A stretch of DNA of 58,422 nt, taken from contig DAHUYD010000055.1 of the NCBI GenBank assembly GCA_027315385.1, forward strand, positions 1 to 58,422, given 5' to 3'. Within the stretch, counting starts at the first letter, position 1. Each line of letters begins with the position of its first letter. Below, piece by piece: positions 7,964 to 42,620 of the stretch. Under the pieces are notes generated by a model. That model worked only from the letters and a program-made list of their open reading frames with translations, was not told where the DNA came from and ran no database searches. Made by a program: the position numbers and the translations under genes. The stretch comes from Acidobacterium sp. Lineage in GTDB: Bacteria; Acidobacteriota; Terriglobia; Terriglobales; Acidobacteriaceae.

Positions 7964-9265
7964 ATGAGGTTGGCAGTCGCAGTCAGGAAACGGCATTCTT
8001 CGCCCGCCGCGGATCGCGATGTTGGTTGCGATTGCCGGGAATCAGGCGGCCGCAGCAATGGTCCGCACAGGGGCGCAACGGTTCTTTTTGCGGCGCTCCT
8101 GGCTGGAGCGATGCTGATCCTGCCGGCGCTGTCAGCCCAGTCCGCATCGAGCAAGGCGGAAGTGTCCGCGGATCTTCAGCAGGCACAGGCAGCCCTGCGG
8201 GCGCATGATTCCGCTGCCGCGCACAGGCTATTCGCCGCGGTATTGGAGGTTGACCCGGGAAATGCCGAAGCGCATGGCAATCTTGGCGTCATGGCGTTCT
8301 TCCACGGCGACTGCGCGGCGGCCGAACCGCATTTCCGCGCCGCGCTGCGCACCCAGCCTTCGCTCACCAAGATCAAAGCGCTGCTTTCCGTTTGCGAGAA
8401 GCAACTCGGCCAGCCGTCCGCTCAGGCCGACATGGAGAGCGCGTTCCAGCAGCTTCAGGATCCCGTATTGCGCGAGCGCCTGGGCATTGAGCTGGCCAAC
8501 CTGGATTACCAGCGAGGCCAGATGGAGAGGGCCGCGGCCGTGCTGCAGACCCTGCTGAATCTGGAGCCGGACAACGTGGATGTACTGTTCTTCGCTCAGC
8601 GGGTCTATACCGAACTGGCCGATCAAACCCTGAATAAGCTGGCAGTGCTGGCGCCAGGGTCGGCGCGCATGGAGCAGTTGATCGCCGAACGGCTCATCAA
8701 TGGCGGGGACGTGAAGGATGCGATCCGGCACTATGAGAAGGCGCTGCAGCTGGACCCGCGGCTTCCAGGAGTGCATTTCGAGCTGGCCGAGTCTCTGCTG
8801 CAGGCGTCACCGTCGGACCCCGCCACGGTGACAGCGGCTCAGCAGCAGCTCGAAGACGCGATCGGGATCGACGGAGACAGCGCCAATGTGGAATGCAAGC
8901 TGGCACAGATTGCGATCCAGGAGGGGCGCACGCAGCAGGGACTAGCCGAATATCGGCGCGCTTATCAGCTCGACCCGCAAAACGCGGAAGCGCAAATGGG
9001 TATGGCGACGATCCTGGAGCGCGCCGGCAAGGACGAGCAGGCCGCCGCGTACCTGCGCATGGCCGTGGCGGCGGAGCCGTTCAACGCGAAGGCCCATTAC
9101 CGTCTCTCGCAGGTGGATAAGCGGCTGCATCTGGACAGCGAAGCCGCAGCCCAGTTGAAGTTGTTTGTCGCCGTGCAGGCCGCGAGTCAGAAGGTCCGGC
9201 AGTTATACCGGGAGATGAACCCCGGTACCGCGGCACCCGGTAAGGCATCGCTTCCCAACGGCTGA
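7964..9265 (+). CDS. Secreted tetratricopeptide-repeat protein
   Basis: A 433-residue protein with a long charged N-terminus, a hydrophobic segment (about 39-60, ending SAQSA, signal peptide or anchor) and successive TPR helices to the C-terminus, with typical endings such as LEVDPGNAEAHGNLG, LNLEPDNVDVLF and QLDPQNAEAQMG. TPR proteins act as protein-protein scaffolds. In Acidobacteria they often follow Oar-like receptors, as here, suggesting a periplasmic partner role (inference). The start is uncertain: ATG 7964 has no strong ribosome-binding site, and ATG 8111 just inside the hydrophobic stretch is too short to leave a good signal. Two stem-loops separate it from the receptor, so co-transcription is not assured. 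Confidence 0.8.
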   Translation: MRLAVAVRKRHSSPAADRDVGCDCRESGGRSNGPHRGATVLFAALLAGAMLILPALSAQSASSKAEVSADLQQAQAALRAHDSAAAHRLFAAVLEVDPGNAEAHGNLGVMAFFHGDCAAAEPHFRAALRTQPSLTKIKALLSVCEKQLGQPSAQADMESAFQQLQDPVLRERLGIELANLDYQRGQMERAAAVLQTLLNLEPDNVDVLFFAQRVYTELADQTLNKLAVLAPGSARMEQLIAERLINGGDVKDAIRHYEKALQLDPRLPGVHFELAESLLQASPSDPATVTAAQQQLEDAIGIDGDSANVECKLAQIAIQEGRTQQGLAEYRRAYQLDPQNAEAQMGMATILERAGKDEQAAAYLRMAVAAEPFNAKAHYRLSQVDKRLHLDSEAAAQLKLFVAVQAASQKVRQLYREMNPGTAAPGKASLPNG

Positions 9266-9406
9266 CCTGCTGCGGCCAGGTACTTCATCCTTCACATGCG
9301 TTGTCGTAGTTGGAACATGGCAGTGTGGCGAGACATCCGGGTATGGCAATCCGAGAGATTGCAGGGATCAGGGCAAATCGACATAAGCGGGGGGCGAAGC
9401 CCGAAG

Positions 9407-9814
9407 TCAGCCGCGAATGGCGCCCAACAAGTCGGATGCCGAGAACCCTTTGAGGAGACAAGCGGATGCGAAGGAATAGCGGCTGTAGTCCGGTTCCTCA
9501 TTGAGCGGGTGTTTTGCCACCAGCAGAATGCGGCAGCCAAGGCGCGCCGCCTCTTCGCGCAGGCGTTCGCAGTGCTTTGGAGCCAGCAGAGCTTCGTCAA
9601 TCAGCGCGACATCGGCACGGTTCCTGCGCAGAAAGGCCAGCGCGCCGGCGAACGATCCGAAATCGCCAACGAGTTGCAGATCGTTCTGATTCCGGACAAC
9701 GATGCTCCAGCCCAGACGCTCCAGCCGCGAGGGAATCGCGAGAAGAACGCGGATCGGGGGCCGGGAATCGGGAGGTGGATCGTGGCTGGCAAAAGTGTGG
9801 GAGGAATACGCCAA
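9407..9814 (-). CDS. Stand-alone degenerate receiver-domain protein
   Basis: A 135-residue protein that follows the NarL-type receiver pattern from residue 21 (IRVLLA) to the end (DLLGAIRG) but has no DNA-binding domain. The metal-binding acidic pair after beta-1 is replaced by I27-P28. An Asp at the phosphorylation position (D73 in ALIDE) and the beta-5 Lys (K122 in LLKG) are kept, and the beta-4 Thr/Ser is Ala (A100). It may be a non-phosphorylatable pseudo-receiver. The start is TTG with no clear ribosome-binding site and could be wrong. It lies alone between plus-strand genes. A chance ORF is possible, but the fit over the whole fold argues for a real gene. Confidence 0.6.
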   Translation of the reverse strand: MAYSSHTFASHDPPPDSRPPIRVLLAIPSRLERLGWSIVVRNQNDLQLVGDFGSFAGALAFLRRNRADVALIDEALLAPKHCERLREEAARLGCRILLVAKHPLNEEPDYSRYSFASACLLKGFSASDLLGAIRG

Positions 9815-9907
9815 CGGAAAACACAGCCTGCTTCAACGGCCGCCCGCCGGAGCAGCGGCTCTGGGTGCATTGCTCGTCCGAGACTATCGCGCAGGACTCT
9901 GTCTGCC

Positions 9908-9925
9908 ATCCGACGAAAGTCGGAT
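9908..9925 (+). repeat. REP-like hairpin, copy 3
   Basis: Identical to the copy at 4107-4124 (7-bp stem, GAAA loop). It sits in the 182-base intergenic region between the receiver gene (-) and the GH5-like gene (+). Confidence 0.8.
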
Positions 9926-9996
9926 TCGCGGCCCGAAGATTTCGCATTCAATGAGCAGGATTGCGATGCGGGCGCGGACATGGGGGGAAAAGCACG

Positions 9997-12120
9997 ATGA
10001 CGCGGTATTTGGGAACGGCTTTGCTGGCGACAGCGATATGGGGGGCGACGGGACGCGCCGCGCAGACCGGGGTTGCGCCATCGCCGAAGGGGTTACAGCC
10101 TTTCACGCTTGATTATCCCGCGGCTGTGAGCGCCCATTCGCCCGTCGATGTCTCATTCCTGCTGGATGCTCCGGCGGGCAAGGACGGCTTCGTCCATGCG
10201 GGCGGCGGGCACCTTGAGACCGGCAGCGGGAAACGCATCCGCTTCTGGGGGGTAAACATCACCGACTGGAGTCCGGGATCGACGCAGATTCCCCCGAAGA
10301 AGGACGCGGCGTTGTGGGCGGAGACGCTGACCCGGTATGGAGTGAACTGCGTTCGGCTGCAGTTTCTGGATCTCGTTGCGCCGCGAGGACTGATCGCCGC
10401 TGGACCCAACACGCGGCATTTCGATCCACGGCAAGTGGACCGCGAAGACTACTTCCTTGCGCAACTGGAAAAGCGCGGCATCTACATCGATTTCAATCTG
10501 CTGGTGGGGCGGCCCTTCAAGGCCGGCGATGGCGTCGTGGATGCGGACAAGATCCGGCAGGGCGCGAAGGGCATCAGCCTCTACGATGCGAAGCTGATCA
10601 GGCTTCAGAAGGAATATGCGCGCGAACTGCTGACCCACTACAACCCGTATACGAAGCGCGAATACCGCAACGATCCTGGCTTGGCGATTGTGGAGATCAA
10701 CAATGAAGATGCAATCTGGGTCGGCTTTCGCGGACCGTCGCCCTACTACAACCGCGAGCTGGACACGATCTACAACGACTGGCTGCGGAAGCATGCCAGT
10801 GCGGCGGATGTGCGGGCTCTGCGTCAGGATGCCGGAAGCAACGGAAGCGGGCCGGTTCCTCTGTTGTCCTCACCGCAGGCGGCAACTGCTCCGGCGCGGC
10901 GCTACGACATGGAGGCACGATTCTTTCTGTCGCTGGAGCGTGGCTATTTCAGATCCATGCAGCATTATCTAAGAAAGGACGCTGGGCTCAAATGCGTCAT
11001 TCTGGCGACCGCCGATCACAACCACGCCAGCAGCGCCTATCCGCTGGAACTGGCGCTTTGCTCCTTCGGTGTGCTCGATGGCCACGACTATTGGGAGGGT
11101 CCGTGGGAACGGAAGGCGAAATCACCCATGGTGAACGATCCGCTGCACTCCACGGCAGTGGAGCTGTCGCGGACGGCCGCGGAGGGAAAAGCTTATACGG
11201 TCAGCGAGGTGAATGAGCCGTATCCCAATGACTACGAAGCCGAGCAGATACCCATTCTCGCCGCTTACGGCGACCTGCAGAACTGGGATGCCATCCTTTG
11301 GTACACCTTCGAGCCGAAGAAAGACCCGAGCTGGAAGCCGTATATGGGCGATCCATTCGACATGTCGCAGGATCCGGTGAGAATGTCGGAGCTGGCCGCG
11401 GGCGCGCTTACGTTTCTGCGCGACGATGTGAGCCCGGCGCGGCAGGCGGTGGCGCGCTCCTATTCGAAGCAGGAGGTCTTCGCCAGCGGCCGCCTGCCGA
11501 ACATCCAGCGGCCATACTTCACACCGGGATTTCCCTTGTGGCTGCCGCTCGAGCACAGTTTGCGGATTGCGTCGCTCGATGGCGCGTCCACGGCTCAGTT
11601 CCATGAGGGCGCCCAGCCGAATCCGATCGTATCCGACAACGGACAGCTGATCTGGCACCTTTCGAAGCAGGGCGAAGGGGCGGTCATCGTCAATGCGCCG
11701 CGCACCCAGGCGCTGATCGGTTTCCGCGCGGCCGAGACACGGGAACCGGAGAACCTGTCGGCGCAGGTCAGCAATCCATTCGCCGCTATTGTGCTTACCT
11801 CACTGGATGGCCAGCCTATCGCGACCAGCTCGACCATGCTGCTGAGTACCGGCGCGCGGGTGGCGAACACGGGCATGCAGTGGAACAGCAACCATCGGTG
11901 GCTGACGCAATGGGGCGGACCGCCTACGCTGATCGAGCCGGTATCCGGTTCCATCGTGCTTCGCGGCCTGCGCGGAGCGGCTGCGGTTCTGGCGCAACCT
12001 CTGAACGGCGCCGGGCTACCGCTTGGGCCTGTGCTGCATGCGGTGAGCAACGGCGCTGTGTGGCGGATCGGGGTCGGCCGACCGGCAACCACGTGGTACG
12101 AAATCACAGTCCAGCGTTAG
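9997..12120 (+). CDS. Secreted GH5-like clan GH-A glycoside hydrolase
   Basis: A 707-residue protein with a signal peptide (about 1-22, ATGRAAQ). The N-terminal part has the GH-A pattern: FWGVNITDW near 83, RYGVNCVRLQF near 113, then acid/base candidate E237 in INNED at the end of strand 4 and nucleophile candidate E404 in TVSEVNEP. The C-terminal third looks like a beta-sandwich. Relatives are usually named 'cellulase family glycosyl hydrolase' without a tested substrate. ATG 9997 was chosen over the upstream in-frame ATG 9961 because it follows GGGGGGAAA and begins the signal peptide directly. The sensor kinase gene follows about 100 bases later, so the two may be co-regulated. Substrate unknown. 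Confidence 0.75.
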   Translation: MTRYLGTALLATAIWGATGRAAQTGVAPSPKGLQPFTLDYPAAVSAHSPVDVSFLLDAPAGKDGFVHAGGGHLETGSGKRIRFWGVNITDWSPGSTQIPPKKDAALWAETLTRYGVNCVRLQFLDLVAPRGLIAAGPNTRHFDPRQVDREDYFLAQLEKRGIYIDFNLLVGRPFKAGDGVVDADKIRQGAKGISLYDAKLIRLQKEYARELLTHYNPYTKREYRNDPGLAIVEINNEDAIWVGFRGPSPYYNRELDTIYNDWLRKHASAADVRALRQDAGSNGSGPVPLLSSPQAATAPARRYDMEARFFLSLERGYFRSMQHYLRKDAGLKCVILATADHNHASSAYPLELALCSFGVLDGHDYWEGPWERKAKSPMVNDPLHSTAVELSRTAAEGKAYTVSEVNEPYPNDYEAEQIPILAAYGDLQNWDAILWYTFEPKKDPSWKPYMGDPFDMSQDPVRMSELAAGALTFLRDDVSPARQAVARSYSKQEVFASGRLPNIQRPYFTPGFPLWLPLEHSLRIASLDGASTAQFHEGAQPNPIVSDNGQLIWHLSKQGEGAVIVNAPRTQALIGFRAAETREPENLSAQVSNPFAAIVLTSLDGQPIATSSTMLLSTGARVANTGMQWNSNHRWLTQWGGPPTLIEPVSGSIVLRGLRGAAAVLAQPLNGAGLPLGPVLHAVSNGAVWRIGVGRPATTWYEITVQR

Positions 12121-12217: not shown

Positions 12218-15202
12218 ATGCGGGCATCTGAAAGGTCGCCACAGTCGCGCGCGCGGGGGATGCTGCGCGCACTGACATGCGCAGTTGCGGTCGCGCTGGT
12301 GTGCGCCGCGGCGCTGGCAGCCGCTCCCGACGGCTACACCCGCAAGCTCTGGCAGGTACAGGATGGTTTGCCGGAGCAGACGGTACAGGCCTTCGCGCAG
12401 ACGCCCGATCACTACCTGTGGATCGGCACGACGGGCGGACTCCTGCGTTTCGACGGAGCACGCTTCCGTCTCTACGACCGCAACAACACGCCTCAACTAA
12501 CGGAGAACAGTGTCTTCTCGCTGCTGGTTTCCCGGGATGGCAGTCTCTGGATCGGCACCGAGGGGGGAGGGCTGCTCCGTTATCGGCATGGAAAATTTCG
12601 CGCTTTTGGAGCCGCCGACGGGCTGAGCGACGAATTCGTTCGCGCGCTGCTCGAAGACAGCGGCGGGACCCTCTGGGTGGGCACGGACAACGGCCTGCTG
12701 CGCTACGCCGGGGGCCGCCTGGTGCGGGTGGACGGCAGCGGGAAAATTCCGGCGATTGCGGTGCACGCGCTCGCCGAGGATCGCGCCGGAGGTTTGTGGG
12801 TGGGCGGGTCCAGCTTGCTGCGCCTCTTTCAGGGGAATGTCCGCGAATATCACCTGCAGGGCGGCGGCAGCATGAATCGTGTCAAATCCATCCTGCAGAC
12901 GCGGGATGGCAGCGTCTGGGTGGGTACGGTTTCCGGCCTCCATGTGCTGCGCCCTGGAGCCCGGCATTTCGCGCGTCTGGCTGGAATCAACCAGACGGTG
13001 CGCGTTCTGCGGCAGACCGCGGATGGCGCGCTGTGGGTAGGAACGATCGGTCAGGGATTGTTCCTGCGCAAGAATGGCAGGTTTACCTCGATCGCTGCGC
13101 CCGAGTCGCTGCCCAGCAACACTGTGCTGAATGTGTTTGCGGATGACGAAAAGAACATCTGGATCGGCACGCAGGCTGGGATGCTTCGCCTCACGCGCAC
13201 GCCGGTAAAGATCGTTCCGCTGCCTCAGGGCGCGGACTCGGATTTCGGAACCCTCTACCTGGACCGCGACGGAACGCTTTGGGTCGTCTCAACCCATGTT
13301 TTTCAGGTGAGGGACGGCGTGGCCCGCCAGTGGAGTTATCCGGGACTGGAGCCGCTGCACGCGCGCAATATCTTCCGCGACCGCGAGGGGAACCTGTGGA
13401 TCGGCACGGACGGCGACGGACTCATCCGCATCCGCAACGGCAGCATTCTCCGCCTGACGACGAAGGATGGGCTGGTGAACAATTTCATCCGAGTCATGAT
13501 GCAAAGCCGCGACGGCAGCATGTGGATCGGCACGGACGAAGGCGTCAGCCACCGGACCGAGCACGGCTTTGTCAATTACGGGATGAGCAACGGGCTCACA
13601 TACTTCAGCACGCGCTCTCTCATCGAGGATCGCAACGGCGACATCTGGATAGGGACGGACCGCGGGCTCAGCCATATGCACCAGGGCGTCTTCGTACGCG
13701 ATGAAGCAACCGCGGCGCTCGCGGCCGAAGAGGTGTGGTCGATTGACCAGGATGCCGATGGCGGCCTGTGGTTCGGCACGCGGGACGACGGGCTGTACCG
13801 CTGGAAGCAGAATCGCCTGACCCACTACACCAGCGCGCAGGGTCTGGCCAGCAACAGCATTTACGAGATCGTAGAGGACAGCAGGGGCGGCATGTGGCTC
13901 AGCGGCCCCAACGGCATTTCTCTCCTGCGGCGCCAGGAACTCGACGCCATGGCCGCCGATCCTTCGCGGCATCTTTCGCTCACGTTCTACGGCGTCTCCG
14001 ACGAGGTGCAGACAACGCAGATTTATGGCGGGCGACAACCGTCCGGCTGCCAGGACGGCTCCGATGGCGTATGGTTCCCCAGCAACAACGGGCCGATTCA
14101 CATCGCAGACGAAACGGCTCCGCCCTCCCCGCTGCCGCCGATTGTGATTGACGAAGCGGCCGTTGACGGGCGCGACGTGGACTCCATGCGCACGATCGTT
14201 ATGAATCCCGGGGCTGCGCGCGTGGAGATTTCGTGGTCGCCTATTCTGTTGCGTTCTCAGGAAGGAATGCGCTTCCGCTATAAGCTCGACGGGTTCGACA
14301 AAAACTGGAGCCCGGCGTCGCCGCAGCGCGTCGCGTCCTGGACCAACCTGCCGCCGGGAAAATACACCTTCCGGGTGCGGGCCTTCGAGATCAATCACCC
14401 CCAGGCGGTGACGGAGATCTCTCTTCCCATCGTGCAGCAGCCGCATTTTTGGCGCACGCCGTGGTTTGTGGCCTTCTGTGTAGCTCTGCTGGCCGCCCTG
14501 ATCCTGACGGTCTATCGATTTCGCCTGTGGCAAATGCGCATGCAGTTTGAAGCCGTGCTCGACGAGCGCGGCCGACTGGCCCGTGAAATGCACGACACCG
14601 TGATCCAGGGCTGCGCCGGCATTTCCGCACTGCTGGAGGCGCTGGCCAGTCTTCACGAGGAAAGCCGTTCGCTGCCTCGAGATCTTCTGGAGCATGCGCG
14701 TCGTCAGGTGCGGGCGACCATCGACGAGGCGCGTCAGGCGGTTTGGAATCTGCGCCAGGCACGTCCCTCGGATCGCATGCTTGCACAGACGCTGGAGGGG
14801 ATGGCGCGGCAGATTGCCGCGGATTCAGGCGTGCCTGTGGCCTGCGAAGTCATCGGCAAGCCGTTCGCGCTTACTCAGTACGCCACGCACGAAGTGATGA
14901 TGCTGGCGCGCGAAGCCGTCTGCAATGCCGTGCTGCACGCGCATGCCGGCCGCATTGAGGTGCGCGTAACCTTCGCGCGCGCCGATCTCATTTTTGAAGT
15001 CCGCGACGACGGTGTGGGTTTCGATCCCGACTCCGTGCTGACCGTGAAAGACCGCCACTATGGGCTGATGGGCATGCGTGAGCGCGTGGAGGCTATGGGC
15101 GGAGAATTCAAGCTGGACAGCCAGCCCGGCCGTGGCACAAACTTAGCCGTCAGGATTCCGCGAAAGGTTTCGGGCGCGCGGAGCGCCCTGGTGAAGGTGT
15201 GA
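12218..15202 (+). CDS. Sensor histidine kinase with two-component-regulator propellers
   Basis: About 994 residues. A signal peptide (LVCAAALAAAP) leads into a periplasmic sensor of many Reg_prop repeats (about 30-640; recurring LWIGT, GDGLIRI and DGLVNNFI motifs) that should form beta-propellers, then a Y_Y_Y domain (about 660-745, ending FRVRAFE), one TM helix (about 748-768), a HisKA_3 dimerisation domain with phosphoacceptor H792 in REMHDTVIQG, and a HATPase domain (NAVLHAHA, DDGVGFD, GLMGMRER). It is split from its response regulator, unlike Bacteroides hybrid sensors. ATG 12218 is preferred for a compact signal peptide, though ATG 12167 is in frame. Placed among GH genes, it probably senses an oligosaccharide and phosphorylates the regulator encoded two bases downstream. 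Confidence 0.92.
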   Translation: MRASERSPQSRARGMLRALTCAVAVALVCAAALAAAPDGYTRKLWQVQDGLPEQTVQAFAQTPDHYLWIGTTGGLLRFDGARFRLYDRNNTPQLTENSVFSLLVSRDGSLWIGTEGGGLLRYRHGKFRAFGAADGLSDEFVRALLEDSGGTLWVGTDNGLLRYAGGRLVRVDGSGKIPAIAVHALAEDRAGGLWVGGSSLLRLFQGNVREYHLQGGGSMNRVKSILQTRDGSVWVGTVSGLHVLRPGARHFARLAGINQTVRVLRQTADGALWVGTIGQGLFLRKNGRFTSIAAPESLPSNTVLNVFADDEKNIWIGTQAGMLRLTRTPVKIVPLPQGADSDFGTLYLDRDGTLWVVSTHVFQVRDGVARQWSYPGLEPLHARNIFRDREGNLWIGTDGDGLIRIRNGSILRLTTKDGLVNNFIRVMMQSRDGSMWIGTDEGVSHRTEHGFVNYGMSNGLTYFSTRSLIEDRNGDIWIGTDRGLSHMHQGVFVRDEATAALAAEEVWSIDQDADGGLWFGTRDDGLYRWKQNRLTHYTSAQGLASNSIYEIVEDSRGGMWLSGPNGISLLRRQELDAMAADPSRHLSLTFYGVSDEVQTTQIYGGRQPSGCQDGSDGVWFPSNNGPIHIADETAPPSPLPPIVIDEAAVDGRDVDSMRTIVMNPGAARVEISWSPILLRSQEGMRFRYKLDGFDKNWSPASPQRVASWTNLPPGKYTFRVRAFEINHPQAVTEISLPIVQQPHFWRTPWFVAFCVALLAALILTVYRFRLWQMRMQFEAVLDERGRLAREMHDTVIQGCAGISALLEALASLHEESRSLPRDLLEHARRQVRATIDEARQAVWNLRQARPSDRMLAQTLEGMARQIAADSGVPVACEVIGKPFALTQYATHEVMMLAREAVCNAVLHAHAGRIEVRVTFARADLIFEVRDDGVGFDPDSVLTVKDRHYGLMGMRERVEAMGGEFKLDSQPGRGTNLAVRIPRKVSGARSALVKV

Positions 15203-34669: not shown

Positions 34670-35173
34670 TTACACCTCCGATGCCGATGCGAGAACCTCG
34701 AGGATCCCAATCAGGATGGCCACCGGAGTCGGTGGACAACCACGAATCGTATGGTTGACCGGGATCACATCGCCGACACCGCCGCGGCTGGCGTAGCTTT
34801 TTCCAAAAATGCCCCCGCACTCCGCGCAATCGCCGACGGCAACAGCCAGTTTGGGATCCGGTATGGCATCCCAGGTGCGCCGCAGCGCTTCTTCCATGTT
34901 GACGGAGACGGGGCCGGTTACCAGGAGCAGGTCGGCATGGCGCGGGCTGGCTACGAATTTGATTCCCGTGCCTTCGAGGTTGTAATAAGGATTGCTCAGA
35001 GCCTGCAGCTCGAGCTCGCAGCCGTTACAGGAGCCGGCATCGACGTGGCGGATGCATAATGCGCGTCCGAGAATCCGGTAGATACCTCGTTGCAGCTCAT
35101 CGTTGGAGGGAACTGCGGCGGACGTTTCGGTGAGAATGCCGGTGCGCGCCATACGCGAGAGAACGTCGAACAT
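34670..35173 (-). CDS. hyfI: HyfI/NuoB-like iron-sulfur subunit
   Basis: A 167-residue protein homologous to NuoB and group 4 hydrogenase small subunits. Ligands for the proximal [4Fe-4S] (N2-type) cluster are present: C49-N-G-C52 (GSCNGCELEL), C116 (GDCAECGG) and C146 (GCPPTP). It forms the peripheral-arm interface with the HyfG-like subunit at the membrane. ATG 35173 has GAGGTGG upstream and lies eight bases after the hyfG-like stop. The intact cluster contrasts with the lost Ni-Fe site of its partner, so electron transfer is still plausible. Confidence 0.92.
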   Translation of the reverse strand: MFDVLSRMARTGILTETSAAVPSNDELQRGIYRILGRALCIRHVDAGSCNGCELELQALSNPYYNLEGTGIKFVASPRHADLLLVTGPVSVNMEEALRRTWDAIPDPKLAVAVGDCAECGGIFGKSYASRGGVGDVIPVNHTIRGCPPTPVAILIGILEVLASASEV

Positions 35174-35181
35174 TTGCCACC

Positions 35182-36735
35182 TCAGCCGTCCTGTCCGCTG
35201 TAGGACAGGTTGAAGGATTTGTTAATCAAAGGAAAGTCGGGCACGATATTGCCGATGATCGCGTATTCGAGCAGCGGCCAGTTCTGAACCGACGGGTCGT
35301 GGGCGTGGCACCAGCGGATTGTTCCCTCCGGCCCGGTTTCGAGAGCTATTGCCACGGGTCCGCGCCATCCTTCGATCAGGCCGATTCCTGCGCGGTTCGG
35401 CTCCGCAGGGGGAACATTGGTCCGAACCGGACCGTCTGAAAGGCCGTCCAGAAGGGCGCGGCATAGGCGCAAGGATTCTGCGATCTCGTCCAACCGGACC
35501 TGCGCGCGTGCGGCGACATCGCCGGATGTCTGCGTGACCACTTTTGGCGCAAGCTTGTCATAGGGTGGCCAGGGATGATCCGCGCGCAAATCGGAGGCTA
35601 TGCCCGACGCGCGTGCGGCGAGCCCCACCGCTCCGAGCTTTTCAGCCAGATCGGGAGCTAGCCGGCCCGTCTCGCGGAATCGATCCTGGATGCCTGCGTG
35701 CTCGTCATAAATGTTGCGCATGCTGGTGACTCCGTCTGCAAGTTCCCGATATAGATGGAGAAGTTGAGCCACCGCGTATTCCGGCGGATCTCCACCGACC
35801 CCGCCGGGGAGGATATAGTCCAACAGATACCGCGCGCCGAAGAGGTCGGCGTTCGCGCGAAGCAGATCCTCTTTCATGCGCGAGAATTGCGTGAGCCCGA
35901 AGGCAAATCCCGCATCGTTGCCTAATGCACCAAGGTCGCCCAGATGGTTGGCGAGACGCTCGTGTTCGAGAGCGAGGGCGCGAAGATGGAGAGCGCGTTC
36001 CGGACACACCGTCCGGGTGATGGCTTCGAGTGCGGCGCACCAGGCCCAGGAGAAGGCGACGGCGGAGTCGCCGGAAATCCGCGCCGCCAGACGATGGCCG
36101 AGCTTCTGGGACGTTCCCTGAAAGAGCTTCGCCACTCCCTTGTGGGTGTAGCCGAGCCGTTCTTCCAGGCGCAGCACCTTTTCGCCGACGACAGAGAAGC
36201 GAAAATGTCCAGGCTCGATGATGCCGGCATGAACCGGGCCGACCGCGATCTCATGCACTCCATCGCCCTCGACGGGCACGAAGGCGTAAGGCGTGGGCTG
36301 CGCGGGATAGTTCGTCGCTGCGTCGAAGTCGCGCCGCAGGGGGAAAACATCCTCCGGCCAGCCGCTGTGGCGGAGCCACCCGCGGGTATCGGAGCCGGTG
36401 GCGCGAATTCCGAGCAGGTCGAACACCGCCCTCTGCATGCGGGCTGCCGAGGGAAAGAGTTCAGCGAGGCTGGGATACGATGGTCGCTCTGTATCTGCGA
36501 TGCGGTGTTCCGCGATCACCAGGCCATCCGGCGTGAGCCATGCGGCGCGAATGCGAAAGGAACCGTTGCGGTCGCGGTCATCGGCACCCCAGAGGGTCAG
36601 AAGGCGGGCTGCGGAGGCGTGCAACTCCTTCGCCAGACGTAGCCAGTCGTCACCCTGGGCATCACACCGGACCGCCGGCAGGTTGGAAGGCAGCAGAGTC
36701 GCGAACACGCCGAAGATCGTGGATTGCATCGTCAT
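35182..36735 (-). CDS. hyfG: HyfG-like large subunit (NuoC-NuoD fusion) lacking Ni-Fe cysteines
   Basis: 517 residues. The N-terminal NuoC-like domain (about 10-137: SYPSLAELFPSA, FPLRRDF) is fused to a NuoD/hydrogenase large-subunit domain (about 160-517: HEIAVGPVHAGIIEPGHFRF). In [NiFe] hydrogenases two CxxC motifs bind the metals. Here the first is R-I-S221-G-D-S224, and the C-terminal DPCxxC is D480-P-S-V-Q-N, so no cysteine ligand remains and Ni-Fe binding is very unlikely. The C-terminus (GNIVPDFPLINKSFNLSYSG) is not extended for maturation. This is the hallmark of Ehr complexes. ATG 36735 overlaps the hyfF-like TGA by one base. The reaction catalysed is unknown. Confidence 0.93.
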   Translation of the reverse strand: MTMQSTIFGVFATLLPSNLPAVRCDAQGDDWLRLAKELHASAARLLTLWGADDRDRNGSFRIRAAWLTPDGLVIAEHRIADTERPSYPSLAELFPSAARMQRAVFDLLGIRATGSDTRGWLRHSGWPEDVFPLRRDFDAATNYPAQPTPYAFVPVEGDGVHEIAVGPVHAGIIEPGHFRFSVVGEKVLRLEERLGYTHKGVAKLFQGTSQKLGHRLAARISGDSAVAFSWAWCAALEAITRTVCPERALHLRALALEHERLANHLGDLGALGNDAGFAFGLTQFSRMKEDLLRANADLFGARYLLDYILPGGVGGDPPEYAVAQLLHLYRELADGVTSMRNIYDEHAGIQDRFRETGRLAPDLAEKLGAVGLAARASGIASDLRADHPWPPYDKLAPKVVTQTSGDVAARAQVRLDEIAESLRLCRALLDGLSDGPVRTNVPPAEPNRAGIGLIEGWRGPVAIALETGPEGTIRWCHAHDPSVQNWPLLEYAIIGNIVPDFPLINKSFNLSYSGQDG

Positions 36736-38186
36736 CACCCAATCAGCCGCGCGGCGGCACGATACCACTCAGCCAGCGCAGGAGGCATGTACAACCCCAG
36801 CGCGAGCACCATGGCCAGATGCACGAAGACAGGCACCAAAGCTGGAGAGTGAGGCAAAGGAGGCGCGTCGCTTTCACCAAAGACCATGGGCTGAACTTTG
36901 CTGAAGATTCCGGCGAAGGCTACGCCGAGGGCGATCAGCAGAAAGGGGGTGGCCCAGGGATGCTCCCGCATGGCGGTGGTCAGGATAAGAAACTCACTGG
37001 CAAACACGCCGAAGGGGGGCATGCCGAGGATGGCAATCGACCCCAGCATGAGTCCCCAGCCGATGGTGGGGCTGATGCCCAGCAGTCCGCGGATTCCATC
37101 CATGCGCTGCGTGCCGGCAGCCTGCGAGGCATGCCCGGCTGTGAAGAAGATTGAGGACTTGGTAAGCGAATGAAGCGTCATGTGGAGCAAAGCCGCGAAA
37201 TTGGCGATGGGGCCGCCGAGCCCGAAGGCAAAGGTGACGATGCCCATGTGCTCGATCGACGAATACGCGAAGAGCCGCTTGATATCGCGCTGCCTCCAGA
37301 GAAAGAAAGCTCCGAGGACCGCGGTCAGCAATCCGAAGGTCATCAGCATCCGGCCGGGGAGCGCGGCGCCGATCGAGCCCTCGACCAGCACCTTGCAGCG
37401 GATGACCGCATAGAGCGCGACGTTCAGCAGAAGACCGGAGAGGACGGCGGACACGGGAGTCGGGCCTTCGGCGTGGGCGTCGGGGAGCCAGTTGTGGAGC
37501 GGCGCAAGGCCGACCTTGGTTCCATAGCCGACCAGCAGAAAGACGAAGGCCAACCCCAGAACGCGGGGCTCCAGATGTGCTTTGACCGCATTCAGATGCG
37601 TCCACAACAATGCCGTCATGCCCTCGTGGCCAAGCGTCTGTTCCGCGGCGAAATACAGAAGAATGGTTCCGAACAAAGCCTGAGCGATTCCCACGCCGCA
37701 GAGGATGAAATACTTCCATGCCGCTTCGAGACTTGCGCGGGTGCGGTAGAGCGACACCAGCAGAACCGTCGAGAGCGTCGCGGCTTCCATAGCGACCCAC
37801 AGCAGGCCCATATTATTGGTCAGCAGAGCCAGCAGCATCGCGCCCATGAAGAGCTGGTACATGCTGTGGTAAAGGCGCAGACGGTTGGGGGTCACGCGCC
37901 CATGGTGCTCTTCGATGCGCATGTAGGGACGGGAAAAGATTGCGGTCGTCAGGCCCACAAACGCCGTTAGAGCGACCAGAAACACATTGAATGGATCGAC
38001 GAAGAACTGCTCATGCCAGACCAGCAGGGGGCCGTGCCGGATCACGCGCAGCACCAGCAGCGCGGCGGCGATGAGCGTCGCCAGGCTAATCGTCACATTC
38101 AGCTCCGCGGCGAAGCGGCGCGATCCCAGCAGAGCCAGCAGCAGCGTTCCGAGCAGCGGGAATCCAAGAACCAGCAGCAGCTCCAC
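36735..38186 (-). CDS. hyfF: HyfF-like antiporter-type membrane subunit
   Basis: A 483-residue, many-span membrane protein of the Mrp/NuoL/M/N family: HNWLPDAHAEGPTPVSAVLSG, RDIKRLFAYSSIEHMG, LHMTLHSLTKSSIFF. The lysines and glutamates lining the ion channel in this family are retained. It should translocate H+ or Na+ when coupled to the peripheral arm. GTG 38186 follows GGGAGGAC; the hyfE-like stop ends one base before. Confidence 0.92.
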   Translation of the reverse strand: MELLLVLGFPLLGTLLLALLGSRRFAAELNVTISLATLIAAALLVLRVIRHGPLLVWHEQFFVDPFNVFLVALTAFVGLTTAIFSRPYMRIEEHHGRVTPNRLRLYHSMYQLFMGAMLLALLTNNMGLLWVAMEAATLSTVLLVSLYRTRASLEAAWKYFILCGVGIAQALFGTILLYFAAEQTLGHEGMTALLWTHLNAVKAHLEPRVLGLAFVFLLVGYGTKVGLAPLHNWLPDAHAEGPTPVSAVLSGLLLNVALYAVIRCKVLVEGSIGAALPGRMLMTFGLLTAVLGAFFLWRQRDIKRLFAYSSIEHMGIVTFAFGLGGPIANFAALLHMTLHSLTKSSIFFTAGHASQAAGTQRMDGIRGLLGISPTIGWGLMLGSIAILGMPPFGVFASEFLILTTAMREHPWATPFLLIALGVAFAGIFSKVQPMVFGESDAPPLPHSPALVPVFVHLAMVLALGLYMPPALAEWYRAAARLIG

Positions 38187-38187
38187 G

Positions 38188-38853
38188 TCAGTCCTCCCTC
38201 AGCGATTCGAGATGGTGCAGATCGAGGCTGTCGAACTGCTCTCGGATCTGGAAGAAGAAGATTCCGAGGATGAACACGGCAACCAGCAGATCGAGCGCGA
38301 TGCCCAGCTCAATCACCATGGGCATGCCGTAAGTCGCGCTGGTCGCGGCGAAGAACAGACCGTTCTCCATAGCCAGAAACCCAATGACCTGGGTGATGGC
38401 CCTGCGCCGCGTGATCATCATCAGGAATGAAAGCAGGATGACGGCGAGCGCAATGCCGATCGTATGGCGTGTGATGGTCGTCGCCATCATGGTGATCGGT
38501 TGTGCCAGACCGAAGGCAAAGATCACCAGCACCAGCCCCGCCAGCATCGTAATGGGGATATTCACAAGGGGCTCGTTGTCCCACTGCGCACCGAGCCGCT
38601 GAATGAGCCGATGGAGGATCCAGGGCATAGCAACGACCTTGAGGATCAGCGTGAGGGCAGCCGAGTACCAGAGTTCGGTCAGGCCCGCATCCCAGGCCAC
38701 GAGGCAGGTGGACAGAAACAGGATTGCGCCCTGCCAGGCGTACAGCGTGATCAGGCGCTGGGTTCTGCGGCGCGAAAGCATGGCAAAGGAGATCAGCAAC
38801 AGCCCCGCAGCCAGTAGCTTGAGCAATTGCGCGATGAGATGGGATTTAAGCAA
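38188..38853 (-). CDS. hyfE: HyfE-like membrane subunit
   Basis: A 221-residue protein with about seven membrane helices, close to the length of E. coli HyfE. Typical stretches are LKLLAAGLLLISFAML, HTIGIALAVILLSFLMM, QVIGFLAMENGLFF and IELGIALDLLVAVFILG. HyfE joins NuoK-like and additional helices. TTG 38853 is preferred: it overlaps the hyfC-like stop and has GGGAG nine bases upstream, whereas upstream in-frame starts lie inside hyfC and give a cysteine-rich, non-membrane extension. Confidence 0.88.
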   Translation of the reverse strand: MLKSHLIAQLLKLLAAGLLLISFAMLSRRRTQRLITLYAWQGAILFLSTCLVAWDAGLTELWYSAALTLILKVVAMPWILHRLIQRLGAQWDNEPLVNIPITMLAGLVLVIFAFGLAQPITMMATTITRHTIGIALAVILLSFLMMITRRRAITQVIGFLAMENGLFFAATSATYGMPMVIELGIALDLLVAVFILGIFFFQIREQFDSLDLHHLESLRED

Positions 38854-39811
38854 TGGTGTTCGCTCCCAGCAGCAGGTGGACGAGCAGTCCGAGCACGGCA
38901 AGGAGGAATGCCGTCGCGAGATATTCCGGCGCACGAAACAGGCGCAGCTTGGCCGAGACGGATTCGATCAGGGCGAGCATCGCTCCGGCCACCACGAGTT
39001 TGCCGATGAGTGCGGCAACGGCGACAAGCAGCGCGCCTGTGCCATCGGCTCCGTGGATGGCGATGCCCCAGGGCAGAAACAGAGCAAAACCGATGCAGGC
39101 ATAGTTGAAGAGCTTAAGGCTCGACGCCCATTCGACCAGGGCGAGATGCCGCGCCGAATATTCGAGCAGCATTGCCTCATGGATCATCGTCAGTTCCAGG
39201 TGCGTGGCCGGATTGTCGATGGGAATGCGCGCGTTCTCGGCGAGAAGAACCATAACGAACGCGACGGCGGCGAAGATCACACTCGGGTCGATTCCGGACC
39301 GATGGGCGGCATAACCATCCACAAGGCTGGGCAGCGCTGTGCTGCCGAATAAGAGGAAGGCATTGAACAGCACCATCAGAAGAGCCGGTTCCGCCAGGAA
39401 GCCGATCATCATCTCACGGCGCGCCCCCATCGTGCCGAACGCCGTGCCGATGTCCATCGCTGCCAGGGCCGTAAAGACGCGCGCGGTGGCGAAGAGTCCG
39501 ATCAGGGCGATGGCGTCGGCCGCTCGGGCAAACGGCAGGTCGGTCGCAATGGAAGGAACGATCGCAGCCGCCAGGACCATCGTCCCGAACAGGACATACG
39601 GCGTGGCGCGAAACAAGGGAGACGCGTCTGTGGCCAGAGCGGCGTCCTTATGAAAGAGCTTGTGCAACATGCGGTAGGGCTGGATCAGCGGCGGAGCCGA
39701 ACGGTTCTGCATCCAGGCGCGGCACTGTGCGATCCACCCGGCGAAGAGGGGCGCGATCCCGATGGCCAGAGCCACCTCCGCGCATTGCCGCACCAGGCTG
39801 ATGAGTTTCAT
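38846..39811 (-). CDS. hyfC: HyfC/NuoH-like membrane subunit
   Basis: A 321-residue membrane protein of the NuoH/HyfC family, which links the peripheral arm to the antiporter-like subunits. The signature loop ENARIPIDNPATHLELTMIHEAM is present with its conserved acidic residues. ATG 39811 overlaps the hyfB-like TGA (ATGA), indicating translational coupling. Confidence 0.92.
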   Translation of the reverse strand: MKLISLVRQCAEVALAIGIAPLFAGWIAQCRAWMQNRSAPPLIQPYRMLHKLFHKDAALATDASPLFRATPYVLFGTMVLAAAIVPSIATDLPFARAADAIALIGLFATARVFTALAAMDIGTAFGTMGARREMMIGFLAEPALLMVLFNAFLLFGSTALPSLVDGYAAHRSGIDPSVIFAAVAFVMVLLAENARIPIDNPATHLELTMIHEAMLLEYSARHLALVEWASSLKLFNYACIGFALFLPWGIAIHGADGTGALLVAVAALIGKLVVAGAMLALIESVSAKLRLFRAPEYLATAFLLAVLGLLVHLLLGANTIA

Positions 39812-41844
39812 AAGACGAACACCAGCAGAGCAAGCAGGGTCAGGAAGCTATAAAGCAGGTACACAGACAAACGGCCGCCCTGCAGAATACTGACGGCATC
39901 GGCGATCCGCTGCACGGCGCGCGCAATGGGCTGATAGATCCAGCCCCAGAAGCGGTCCTCGATATGAATGCGATAACGCGGCGCCTCGTCGGAGGGCGAC
40001 GGCAGGTCGCGCTCCATGCGGAAGAACGCCCCGAACATGTGGCGGATCGGCTGGCCGAATCCCTCCGCCGTATCCTGCATGCGCGAGGTTTGCCAGGGAT
40101 AGCCGCAGTCCCAGGCGGCTGTGCGGCGCATGCGGCCGTGCGCCAGCAGACGCACCAGAAGGAAAGTGATGCCGATGGCGGCGACGATACCAGCCAGAAA
40201 AATCAGGCCGCTGTAGGACGCCTGCTCAGGCGTGACCGGTGCGATCCGCCAGAAAGAGGCGCCGGGAGTGACTGTTTGGCCGATGAGTTTGCCGGTCACC
40301 GTCCCCGCCGCGCGCAGGGCGAACTGCGGCAGCACGCCGATGAAGACGCATCCGGCCGCCAGCCATCCCAGTCCGATCCGTTCCAGCCAGTTGGCGTCAT
40401 GTGCGTCGACCAGCGAGGGTTCGCGCGGCTGACCGAGGAAGATCACGCCGTAGAACTTCACCATCACATAGGCGGCCAGGGCGACGGTCAATGCCAGCAC
40501 AGCCGCTCCCAGCGGGACCAGCATGTTGAGAAAGGCTTGCGGGAGCCGCGGAGTAAAGAGAAACGACTGCAGCAGCAGCCACTCGGAGACAAAGCCGTTG
40601 AGCGGCGGCAGACCGGCAATGGCAAGCGTTCCGATCAGCGCCAGAAAGGCGACCCAGGGCATACGGCGAATCAGGCCGCCCAGTTTGCCCAGGCTGCGCT
40701 GCCGGGTCGCGTGCAGAACCGAACCGGTCGCCAGAAACAGCAGGCTCTTGAAGAGCGCGTGATTAAGGGCGTGAATCAGCGCCGCCGCCAGCGCGAGAGC
40801 CGCAAAGAGGGGCATATGACTTGCGTCGAACAGCACGGCCAGACCGATGCCTGTGAAGATCAACCCAACATTCTCGATCGAGGAGTAGGCCAGCAGTCGC
40901 TTCATGTCCGTCTGCACGGCCGCGAAGGCCGCTCCGAAAACAGCGGAGAAAAGGCCGAGCGTCAGCATCGCTGCTCCCCACTGCCAGAACTGCACGTGGA
41001 GCAGATCGAAGGTGATCCGCAACATGCCGTAGATCGCGGTGTTGAGCATGAGCCCGCTCATCATCGCCGACACCGGCGAGGGGGCGGCGGGATGCGCTTC
41101 CGGCAGCCACGCGTGCAGGGGGACCAGGCCGGCCTTGGCTCCGAAGCCGAGCAGTGCCAGAGCAAATGCGATTGTGGCCCAGAAAGGCGCGAGCGATGCT
41201 CCGCGCATTGCATCGAAGGTGAACTGCCAGCTTCCCCCCTGCAATACGCCGAAGCACAGCAGAATGCAGATGGCGCCCACATGGGCCATCAGAAGATAGA
41301 GGAAACCGGCGCGGCGAATCTCAGGAATGCGGTGCTGCGACGTGACCAGGAAATAGGAACTGAGAGCCATCGTCTCCCACGCCACCATGAACAGATAGGC
41401 ATCGTCGGCGAGAATGACCGTCGCCATGCTGGCCAGAAAGACGTGGTACTGCAGGCCCAGCAGTGCGGGCGCGGTACCCTCGCCGCGTCGGAAATATCCG
41501 GCGGCGAAAATCGAAATTCCTGCTCCCGCCATGCCGAGGATCAGGAGGAAGAATCCCGACAACGCATCCAGCCGCAAATGAAACGGCAGATCCGGCAGGC
41601 CGAGCGGGAGGATCATCGCTTCGGCCGTGTGGCCGGTGGCCAGGAAGGTTCCGGCCAGCAGTGCGACGCCGATGCAGCCCACCGCTCCAAGAGGAAACAG
41701 CAGGTGGGCAACAAAGCGCACACTGCGGGGGCGCAACAGTCCCACAGCGCCCAGAATCACCCAGGCTGCCACCAGGAACAGCAGCGAATGAAGTGTGGGT
41801 CCGTGCAAAGCGGTCGCCGCAGACAGCCAGCGAGGTGCGCTCAA
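39808..41844 (-). CDS. hyfB: HyfB-like large antiporter-type membrane subunit
   Basis: A 678-residue NuoL/HyfB-family protein with about 16 membrane helices: VAWETMALSSYFLV, HAWLPEAHPAAPSPVSAMMSG, QTDMKRLLAYSSIENVGL, HALNHALFKSLLF. It has a C-terminal extension typical of HyfB (WDCGYPWQTSRMQDTAEGF). It is probably an ion-translocating subunit, the first structural gene of the operon. TTG 41844 is supported by AGAGG with seven-base spacing. No HyfD-like third antiporter subunit and no HyfA/HyfH ferredoxin-like gene are present in the cluster. Confidence 0.92.
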   Translation of the reverse strand: MSAPRWLSAATALHGPTLHSLLFLVAAWVILGAVGLLRPRSVRFVAHLLFPLGAVGCIGVALLAGTFLATGHTAEAMILPLGLPDLPFHLRLDALSGFFLLILGMAGAGISIFAAGYFRRGEGTAPALLGLQYHVFLASMATVILADDAYLFMVAWETMALSSYFLVTSQHRIPEIRRAGFLYLLMAHVGAICILLCFGVLQGGSWQFTFDAMRGASLAPFWATIAFALALLGFGAKAGLVPLHAWLPEAHPAAPSPVSAMMSGLMLNTAIYGMLRITFDLLHVQFWQWGAAMLTLGLFSAVFGAAFAAVQTDMKRLLAYSSIENVGLIFTGIGLAVLFDASHMPLFAALALAAALIHALNHALFKSLLFLATGSVLHATRQRSLGKLGGLIRRMPWVAFLALIGTLAIAGLPPLNGFVSEWLLLQSFLFTPRLPQAFLNMLVPLGAAVLALTVALAAYVMVKFYGVIFLGQPREPSLVDAHDANWLERIGLGWLAAGCVFIGVLPQFALRAAGTVTGKLIGQTVTPGASFWRIAPVTPEQASYSGLIFLAGIVAAIGITFLLVRLLAHGRMRRTAAWDCGYPWQTSRMQDTAEGFGQPIRHMFGAFFRMERDLPSPSDEAPRYRIHIEDRFWGWIYQPIARAVQRIADAVSILQGGRLSVYLLYSFLTLLALLVFVL

Positions 41845-41947: not shown

Positions 41948-42292
41948 TCACTCGCCGGTCTCCGCCGGGGCGTTTTCCATTTTGTCGAGCATCTCCAGAG
42001 CTTCCTTCAGGTGTTTCTGGAAATACTGACGCATCAGAGCCAGCACCTCGAGGATAATCGGGTCGCGTACCGAATAGAAAACCTGGTTTCCAGCCTTGCG
42101 GTTCACCACGATCTGCCGCGCCCTCAGCACCGCCAGATGCTGCGAGACATTGGCCTGCTCCATGCCCAGCTTTTCAATCAGTTCCCCCGCCGAACACTCC
42201 CCATTGCCCAGCAGTTCAAGGATGGCGATGCGCGTCGGATTGGCCAGGGCCTGAAAGATGTCGGCCTTGAAGCGGCGAAGTGAATCAGGCAT
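41948..42292 (-). CDS. ArsR/SmtB-family transcriptional regulator
   Basis: A 114-residue winged-helix regulator: LANPTRIAILELLG, MEQANVSQHLAVLRARQIVVNRKAGNQVFYSV. It has a single cysteine (C33 in GECSAGEL) and lacks the multi-cysteine metal site of classic ArsR proteins, so its signal is unclear; a redox or thiol signal is possible. It precedes the hyfB-like gene by 103 bases with no terminator between, so it probably autoregulates the whole operon. ATG 42292 matches the family N-terminus; the frame runs further upstream without family similarity. Confidence 0.88.
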   Translation of the reverse strand: MPDSLRRFKADIFQALANPTRIAILELLGNGECSAGELIEKLGMEQANVSQHLAVLRARQIVVNRKAGNQVFYSVRDPIILEVLALMRQYFQKHLKEALEMLDKMENAPAETGE

Positions 42293-42307
42293 GGAACGGA
42301 GCGCCTC

Positions 42308-42346
42308 TATGTATAAGCAAATTAGCAATTTCGAATATATAGTAGC
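42308..42346 (-). promoter_or_regulatory. AT-rich candidate promoter/operator of the arsR-hyf operon
   Basis: A 39-base AT-rich island in otherwise GC-rich DNA, 16 bases before the arsR start. Read on the minus strand it includes TATATATTCG, AATTGCTAATTTGC and TATACAT. The repeated GCAAATT/GCAATT units and partial dyad fit an ArsR-family operator overlapping a promoter. Position and composition are the evidence; no consensus match was made. Confidence 0.45.
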
Positions 42347-42620
42347 ACGATCTGGCCCTCCTCCATCACGGAGTTCCATTTTGCTCGTACTTTTGTCTGT
42401 CCTTTCCCGTAGACAGAGAAGAGGGGGTATTTCCGTCACCCCCGGCAGGGGTATGTTGCTGACGATGAATGCGGTTGGCACCGAATATGTCAACGACGCG
42501 ATGCGCCTGGCCAGCACGGGGAACATGCCAATGCCCCATATCCGGCGACCGGTTCATTCAGTGGAATTGGAATCGGGAGAGCGGCGCAAGGGAGAGAGAA
42601 GCGGTTGGTGCGCTGATCTG

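Follow-up and report, generated by a model that had tools for sequence, protein, structure and literature searches.

The window analysed here, i.e. the whole 58,422-nt stretch of a contig from Acidobacterium sp., contains on its minus strand a cluster of six open reading frames (ORFs; positions 34670-41844) that overlap or lie a few bases apart and encode relatives of HyfB, C, E, F, G, and I. Pfam matches to complex I subunits were obtained for five of the six ORFs and NCBIfam matches to complex I or hydrogenase-4 subunits for all six, the cut-offs being passed only by B and F, and the six coupled genes described in an initial annotation of this DNA were confirmed in this way. The cluster has the features of an Ehr complex, namely group 4-like large and small subunits without the Ni-Fe cysteines and the B, F, C, and E subunits in one cluster. 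The core of the initial annotation, which placed it in the Ehr class without a Ni-Fe site and with unassigned electron donor and acceptor, stands (none of the four cysteines is present, and HycE is the best solved match).

The first gene (39808..41844, TTG start) encodes a HyfB/NuoL-like antiporter subunit of 678 aa (Proton_antipo_M, 5.5e-49; hydrogenase 4 subunit B, 877 bits, cut-off 667), whose best solved relative is HycC (7z0s_C). It is followed by the genes for a HyfC/HycD/NuoH-like membrane anchor (38846..39811, 321 aa; NADHdh, 2.6e-29; best solved relatives HycD 7z0s_D, 2.4e-36, and Mbh 6cfw_M, 4.9e-19), a HyfE-like subunit (38188..38934, 248-aa ORF), and a HyfF/NuoM-like antiporter subunit (36735..38186, 483 aa; hydrogenase 4 subunit F, 855 bits, cut-off 543). 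The HyfE-like ORF has no match in Pfam and matches the PRK11492 hydrogenase 4 membrane subunit under the cut-off (2.1e-27, 96 bits, cut-off 136); it shares 89 bases with the C gene, so that its true start probably lies further in. The last two genes encode a HyfG/HycE/NuoCD-like large subunit without Ni ligands (35182..36768, 528-aa ORF from GTG 36768; Complex1_49kDa and Complex1_30kDa) and a HyfI/HycG/NuoB-like small subunit of 167 aa with one four-Cys cluster site and no ferredoxin domain (34670..35173; Oxidored_q6, 9.2e-28). In agreement with the initial annotation, no HyfA-, HyfD-, or HyfH-like gene occurs among the six; no NuoI/G/E/F-like gene was found in the cluster, and no HycB, HycF, or FdhF among the neighbouring ORFs of the window.

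Lost Ni-Fe site and conserved pocket signature

Among solved structures, the large subunit is best matched by HycE (7z0s_E, 1.1e-58). The first CxxC of HycE aligns with S232-G-D-S235 (528-aa numbering; codons of S232-G233-D234-S235 at 36064..36075, minus strand), and HycE IGSLDPCYSC aligns gap-free with INKSFNLSYSG at the extreme C-terminal end, where the codons of NKSFNLSYSG (residues 516-525) occupy 35194..35223 on the minus strand and the canopy Asp is now Asn520 (both sets of coordinates were calculated from the ORF start). The two serines had been recorded as S221 and S224, which are the same residues counted from the ATG at 36735 (a shift of 11). DPSVQN (491-496), previously read as the remnant of DPCxxC, aligns with HycE RAATYANW and with NPSFATL of the NuoD of the same genome, and this assignment was wrong, the true position being NKSFNLSYSG. 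Both placements of the second motif lack cysteine, and thus the conclusion that no Ni site is present holds. None of the four Ni-Fe cysteines remains in the large subunit, which has SGDS and NLSYSG in place of the CxxC and DPCxxC by which group 4 [NiFe] hydrogenases are recognised. In addition, only three residues follow the last ligand position, compared with 35 in HycE and HyfG, and a C-terminal maturation peptide of the Hyd-3/Hyd-4 type is absent. A lack of Ni-Fe maturation does not explain why these ligands are missing, since the source genome (3.75-Mb draft, 91% complete) encodes, besides HypD and two copies of NuoD, a Hox-like bidirectional hydrogenase and a large PF00374 hydrogenase protein, the ORF of which is truncated at a contig end. 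Inspection by eye of the invariant columns of two alignments for the alternative metal ligands considered in the initial annotation revealed no substitute Cys/His set: these columns contain no Cys, and the only invariant His absent from HycE is His134, in the NuoC-like domain.

For the comparison with relatives, 127 different large subunits were aligned, comprising 115 Ehr rows, three near relatives with four cysteines, six formate hydrogenlyase (FHL)-type rows (two from Escherichia coli), E. coli NuoCD, and two odd rows, L131 and L146. W-type matches spanning <330 residues and three doubled E. coli rows were left out, as was one further fragment before the FastTree analysis. The GTDB loci were found via the patterns G[IVT]IEPGHF and DFP[LV][IC]NKS and represent the best 80 of at least 578 stretches that, in one GTDB scan, encode a large-subunit relative (hydrogenases not excluded). 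These patterns cover E185 and N516-S518, the constancy of which is therefore partly built in; D234, N520, H275, E428, and R469 lie outside them.

All four Ni cysteines are present in none of the 115 Ehr rows. Every Ehr row (115/115) has Asp in the middle of the former CGxC, where hydrogenases have Ile, Val, or Ala. At the canopy position (D529 of HycE), Asn occurs in 112 of the 115, and the other three have a gap, Gly, and Arg (the latter in a row with an unrelated end); Asp is found there in all six FHL-type rows and in NuoCD, and Glu in all three near four-Cys relatives. HycE Asp529 is described as a canopy residue strictly conserved throughout the superfamily (PMC9474812). Because Asp529 is replaced by Asn520 and Asp234 has been gained, the carboxylate is lost at the canopy and present mid-CGxC, and the two changes may compensate each other. 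The proton-path residues E185, H275, E428, and R469 are each kept in 115 of 115 Ehr rows and R386 in 112 (Lys in the other three), the roles of these five positions being taken from PMC9474812. Judged from the alignment, the Ehr pocket is not merely stripped but carries a conserved signature of its own, and it is probably not dead. The Asp and Asn changes look by eye like a single event on the tree and thus count as one independent case, or as two if L146 (Glu mid-site, Asp at the canopy, no cluster cysteines) is taken as a reversion. The three-residue tail is found in 112 of the 114 rows with the GD motif and is shared by the nearest four-Cys relatives.

The small subunit of the window holds all four cluster cysteines, as initially reported, and its best solved relatives are HycG (7z0s_G, 1.2e-33) and MbhJ (6cfw_J, 1.7e-33). 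The four cysteines are present in 109 of the 111 small subunits compared, a set that includes the FHL and E. coli controls, the exceptions being L039, which is cut by a contig end, and L146, which has none of the four. Beyond the absence of separate genes, the predicted product itself also lacks a ferredoxin-like module. Among the 99 Ehr rows with a visible small subunit (16 further rows have none in the stretch examined), 90, including the window, lack a fused ferredoxin domain. The nine that possess it are all from the phylum of the window and carry the domain at the N-terminus with one or two cluster motifs. The Asp/Asn pocket signature is the same with and without this domain, and many small subunits devoid of it retain a short similar N-terminal stretch (by eye). 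A small-subunit ferredoxin domain with one motif was also found in the four-Cys rows L119, L120, and one of two L082 copies; in L119 and L120 the gene set is the same, and no HycF/HycB-like gene adjoins it (the E-like gene of L120 was not recognised). In L082 (betaproteobacterial metagenome-assembled genome [MAG] contig JACPTK010000096.1), a ligand-less Ehr operon has a four-Cys relative (CGVC ... ELCYSC) as its neighbour. The six-gene Ehr operon of L146 (Allomeiothermus silvanus pMESIL01; 10263-11135 and 8986-10266) has its cluster cysteines replaced by T, D, E, and S, with one ferredoxin-type motif retained in the small subunit, GGE at the CGxC site of the large subunit, and Asp at the canopy.

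As for the membrane subunits, the initial statement that the channel motifs of the antiporter subunits are kept was borne out for three residues and not for the Lys of transmembrane segment (TM) 8, which is Asn. The TM5 Glu and TM7 Lys are kept in both B (E157 and K237) and F (E134 and K224), and the TM12 Glu (B E421, F E398) matches HyfB/HyfF. The F subunit is more conserved than the large subunit. The dN/dS ratios, which are rough because dS is about 1 or more, were 0.04-0.16 in 11 of 12 gene comparisons with two family relatives (that of the small subunit with L136 was saturated), 0.10-0.28 against the Rhodanobacter copy L042, and 0.08-0.16 for four genes against L041, in which C had no match and B was mis-matched. 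By these ratios, the six genes are under purifying selection, and together with the kept TM5 Glu and TM7 Lys this favours a working pump.

History, distribution, and genomic surroundings

In the IQ-TREE analysis (49 rows, ligand columns omitted), the 38 ligand-less rows, L131 aside, group at 91/86, are joined with the three near four-Cys rows at 80/59, and, with these and L131, are split from FHL at 100/100. In the FastTree analysis (126 rows, all columns), the support of the ligand-less group is only 0.178, and the rows without a ferredoxin domain or without a seen small subunit form one 105-row clade with a support of 1.0. IQ-TREE implies one or two losses of the ferredoxin domain. The likely order of events, in which not all branchings are firm, is the appearance of the small-subunit ferredoxin domain together with loss of the maturation peptide, followed by Ni loss with the Asp/Asn changes and then by loss of the ferredoxin domain once or twice.

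The copy of the window groups with Granulicella and Rhodanobacter copies; the window and family copies form a six-member group with the Rhodanobacter copy and a proteobacterial MAG copy (100/99 in IQ-TREE), which nests within a larger set of mostly proteobacterial copies. Since the window's type of Ehr is present in only 6 of 44 genomes of its family and nests among proteobacterial copies, the complex has likely been transferred between phyla. Rhizobium accounts for 31 of the 71 plasmid records matching the large subunit; a complete six-gene set (RL_RS31230-RL_RS31255) with a helix-turn-helix regulator lies on plasmid pRL11 of Rhizobium johnstonii 3841 (L143:10215-17674), a laboratory strain and thus of use for genetic work. 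Two Ehr-type operons lie close together on one contig in L070 (Burkholderiales MAG) and L114 (Geobacter sp. UBA698 MAG), the second operon of L114 being cut by the end of the stretch. The large subunit encoded by L131 (genome G078) is very divergent (end branch 1.41), has TGTS, and shows no recognisable motif at its C-terminus; its gene adjoins hydrogenase-4-like membrane genes.

An ArsR/SmtB-type regulator gene (41948..42526, minus strand; HTH_5, 7.6e-12; HTH_metalloreg, 88.9 bits, cut-off 55) lies directly upstream of the B gene, with 103 bases between them. This ORF has a long N-terminal stretch without a family match, and its true start is probably near Met79 (MPDSLRRFKADIFQAL). An ArsR-like gene was found upstream on the same strand of 10 of the 83 B-like genes examined (window included; two share one regulator). 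When the neighbours of 81 loci, many cut by contig ends, were analysed by clustering rather than annotated one by one, the operon's own genes appeared in 65-72 loci each and any other cluster in 10 or fewer. In 20 loci compared with E. coli Hyf/Hyc/Nuo, a HyfA-like protein of 551 aa (31%) was found a few genes away from the Ehr locus L124. A SulP-type permease gene (PF00916 plus STAS) is located upstream of the B gene on the same strand, not always adjacent to it, in 6 of 80 loci (L056, L063, L073, L087, L093, and L118), and the L087 ORF also carries Usp domains. L137, from the family genome G394, encodes a true [NiFe] large subunit (12982-14691; RICGVC, DPCLAC), a cytochrome b-like protein, and a HycI-like protease within a few kb of its Ehr operon.

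Partner enzymes were counted across the 44 family genomes, without correction for kinship. Pyruvate:ferredoxin oxidoreductase (PFOR) was above the cut-off in five of six genomes with the window's type and 9 of 38 without it (Fisher p 0.009), and a Hox-like hydrogenase was found in 5/6 and 3/38, respectively (counted as a match pattern, the gene context being inspected in three of the eight genomes). Formate dehydrogenase (FDH) was above the cut-off in 3/6 and 23/38 (p 0.68), and as a required partner it was rejected. With the Fd-type carriers G257 and G265 added, the counts became 6/8 and 8/36 for PFOR (p 0.008), 5/8 and 3/36 for the Hox-like enzyme (p 0.002), and 3/8 and 23/36 for FDH (p 0.24). 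The co-occurrence with PFOR, which is weak, and with the Hox-like enzyme hints at a ferredoxin-based anaerobic metabolism.

Interpretation and comparison with known systems

The best explanation of these data, which we hold with slightly less than even confidence, is that the minimal Ehr complex follows the architecture of formate hydrogenlyase and works as an ion pump driven by redox chemistry, with one Fe-S cluster and a directly docking electron carrier. The old Ni-Fe cavity would accommodate another small substrate, which Asp234 would help to hold or protonate, the former canopy Asp being Asn520, and electrons would pass one at a time between the single cluster and the pocket. Since the pocket signature is unchanged although the ferredoxin domain is gone, electrons are most likely exchanged with a soluble low-potential carrier, ferredoxin or flavodoxin, that binds directly to the small subunit. 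Redox turnover would drive, or be driven by, ion movement via C, B, and F, as the retained residues suggest; ion translocation is also suspected for the Ehr family as a whole. A broader proposal, in which we place somewhat less confidence, is that the complex I superfamily has a further redox chemistry besides those of H2, quinone, and sulfane sulfur, the catalytic carboxylate having moved from the canopy (HycE D529) to Asp234 as nickel was lost, and the minimal form, which is widespread, pumping ions with one cluster and direct docking.

Several observations weigh against this interpretation. The AlphaFold model of the large subunit alone (pLDDT 80.5, pTM 0.85; best PDB match 7z0s_E, TM 0.82) has low confidence at residues 159-208 and 506-528 and is therefore no guide to the pocket geometry. 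No conserved electron-donor gene was linked to the complex in the neighbour clustering of the 81 loci. PFOR may be no more than a marker of an anaerobic clade: it is present, together with the Hox-like enzyme but without the complex, in G171 and G388, which belong to the same genus as two carriers, and G007 possesses the complex with no PFOR above the threshold. At the TM8 position, where NuoM and HyfB have Lys, B (N268) and F (N255) carry Asn, as does E. coli HyfF. Finally, L146 has lost all four cluster cysteines with its six genes remaining.

It is rather unlikely that a quinone occupies the pocket, the complex being a ferredoxin:quinone oxidoreductase or, with the pump reversed, making a low-potential carrier from quinol. 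Such a role would suit the Proteobacteria and Nitrospirae, which are rich in respirers and supply most of the best 80 of at least 578 GTDB loci. In addition, the cavity and the complex I quinone site are homologous, and complex I has counterparts of the H275/E428/R386/R469 path (PMC9474812). The Nqo4 quinone ligands H38 and Y87, however, correspond to Glu185 and Gly233 in the window, and the canopy Asp, the loss of which impairs quinone reduction in complex I (PMC9474812), is Asn in nearly all Ehr rows. Formate could instead be the donor, with the complex forming the membrane part of an FDH-linked system (FDH-Ehr), as proposed for Riflemargulisbacteria and Saganbacteria from fdhA with nuoE/F-like genes (PMC6349859); all Ehr subunits are more abundant in Geobacter sulfurreducens grown on formate (PMC7894505), and the source genome holds an FDH above the family cut-off. 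This we consider improbable for the window: no FDH-, HycB-, or HycF-like gene lies among or beside its six genes, FDH is no commoner in family genomes with the complex, and the carriers G007, G321, and G394 (99-100% complete) have only weaker matches to FDH, none above the cut-off.

It again seems improbable that the complex is no longer a redox enzyme and works in ion or bicarbonate transport with its soluble part as a structural or regulatory plug. The six genes kept without cluster cysteines in L146 (an A. silvanus plasmid), the SulP-type permease genes upstream of B, and the better conservation of F than of the large subunit are in line with such a role; a plug, however, would have no need of the four cysteines kept in 109 of 111 small subunits, and the SulP linkage is rare and not always immediate. 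Reduction of sulfane sulfur at the cluster itself is very doubtful. It is known from the Pyrococcus MBS complex, which, apart from complex I, is the Ni-less relative whose reaction is established and which likewise lacks H38/Y87 (PMC7684303). In MBS the loop is shorter by three residues, so that the cluster has three Cys ligands (PMC7684303), whereas the CxxC loop of the window aligns gap-free with HycG and MbhJ; MBS-like chemistry was rejected on this loop, which is of the fully ligated type. In addition, MbsL matches the large subunit of the window only distantly (1.4e-16, vs 1.1e-58 for HycE) and has retained two of its four Ni cysteines, and MBS has a two-cluster subunit, MbsN. That the complex is still a hydrogenase with alternative metal ligands is scarcely credible: Cys occurs at the first ligand position in 7 of 106 rows without a seen ferredoxin domain, and the source genome has HypD and other PF00374 proteins, but none of the 115 Ehr rows has four cysteines, and the tail is almost always three residues long against 35 in HycE/HyfG, although the near four-Cys relatives also have three.

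Ehr complexes as a kind were already known, and the Asp/Asn pocket signature and the lost ferredoxin domain are added here; neither is mentioned in the portions of the published Ehr literature searched, and subscription papers (e.g. Marreiros 2013) may hold them. The two changed residues and the missing domain provide exact targets for mutants and structures, by which an open question becomes testable, and they suggest an order of the steps by which a hydrogenase lost its nickel and the pump stayed. Such complexes are widespread: a 2025 survey found them in about half of Nitrospirales genomes and called their function unknown (PMC12342949). The initial statement that no reaction is assigned accordingly holds for Ehr, but not for Ni-less relatives in general, since MBS reduces sulfane sulfur (PMC7684303).

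The hyfBCEFGI set has been published for Cupriavidus metallidurans CH34 (Rmet_4666-4671) and C. necator H16 (H16_A2196-A2201; PMC2864759), Acidithiobacillus ferrooxidans, where HydDB calls it a non-hydrogenase (PMC7735108), and Nitrospira (PMC5596200), and under the name Ehr for Geobacter (GSU0739-45 of G. sulfurreducens; PMC7894505), comammox Nitrospira (PMC10284858), and relatives of Cyanobacteria (PMC6349859). A literature search for printed phenotypes of the C. necator Ehr genes gave only the CH34 genome paper. The Ehr copies of CH34 and R. johnstonii, the sequences of which were read, have the same pocket signature as the window; the published Geobacter and Nitrospira copies are known from papers only, and other Geobacter and Nitrospirae MAG copies were compared by sequence. 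Unlike the published sets, the Ehr genes of the window adjoin an ArsR regulator, as in several other loci of its phylum. Rv0082-Rv0087 of Mycobacterium tuberculosis, whose two oxidoreductases we take to be relatives of HyfI and HyfB, probably encode the same kind of complex, likened by annotation alone; a Rhodococcus plasmid copy with the same gene order was read by sequence instead. In M. tuberculosis, the ArsR-type Rv0081 precedes and regulates the genes for HycD, HycP, HycQ, HycE, and the two oxidoreductases (PMC6901956, PMC6177252), and hycP and hycQ were reported to be needed for optimal growth (PMC2799521).

Among characterised systems, E. coli formate hydrogenlyase (Hyd-3)/hydrogenase-4 provides the best solved relatives of the L, S, C, and B subunits of the window, which differs from formate hydrogenlyase in having no four cysteines, no HycF, HycB, or FdhF in the cluster, and no maturation peptide. 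Pyrococcus MBS (Mbx) is likewise Ni-less, with pump subunits and without the quinone ligands (PMC7684303), but has a three-Cys catalytic cluster, its own two-cluster subunit, and an Mrp-like distal module. Complex I shares homologous L (NuoCD), S (NuoB), C (NuoH), and antiporter subunits and the proton path with the complex of the window, which is distinguished from it by the absence of H38/Y87, a hydrogenase-type CxxC cluster loop in place of adjacent cysteines, and Asn at the canopy.

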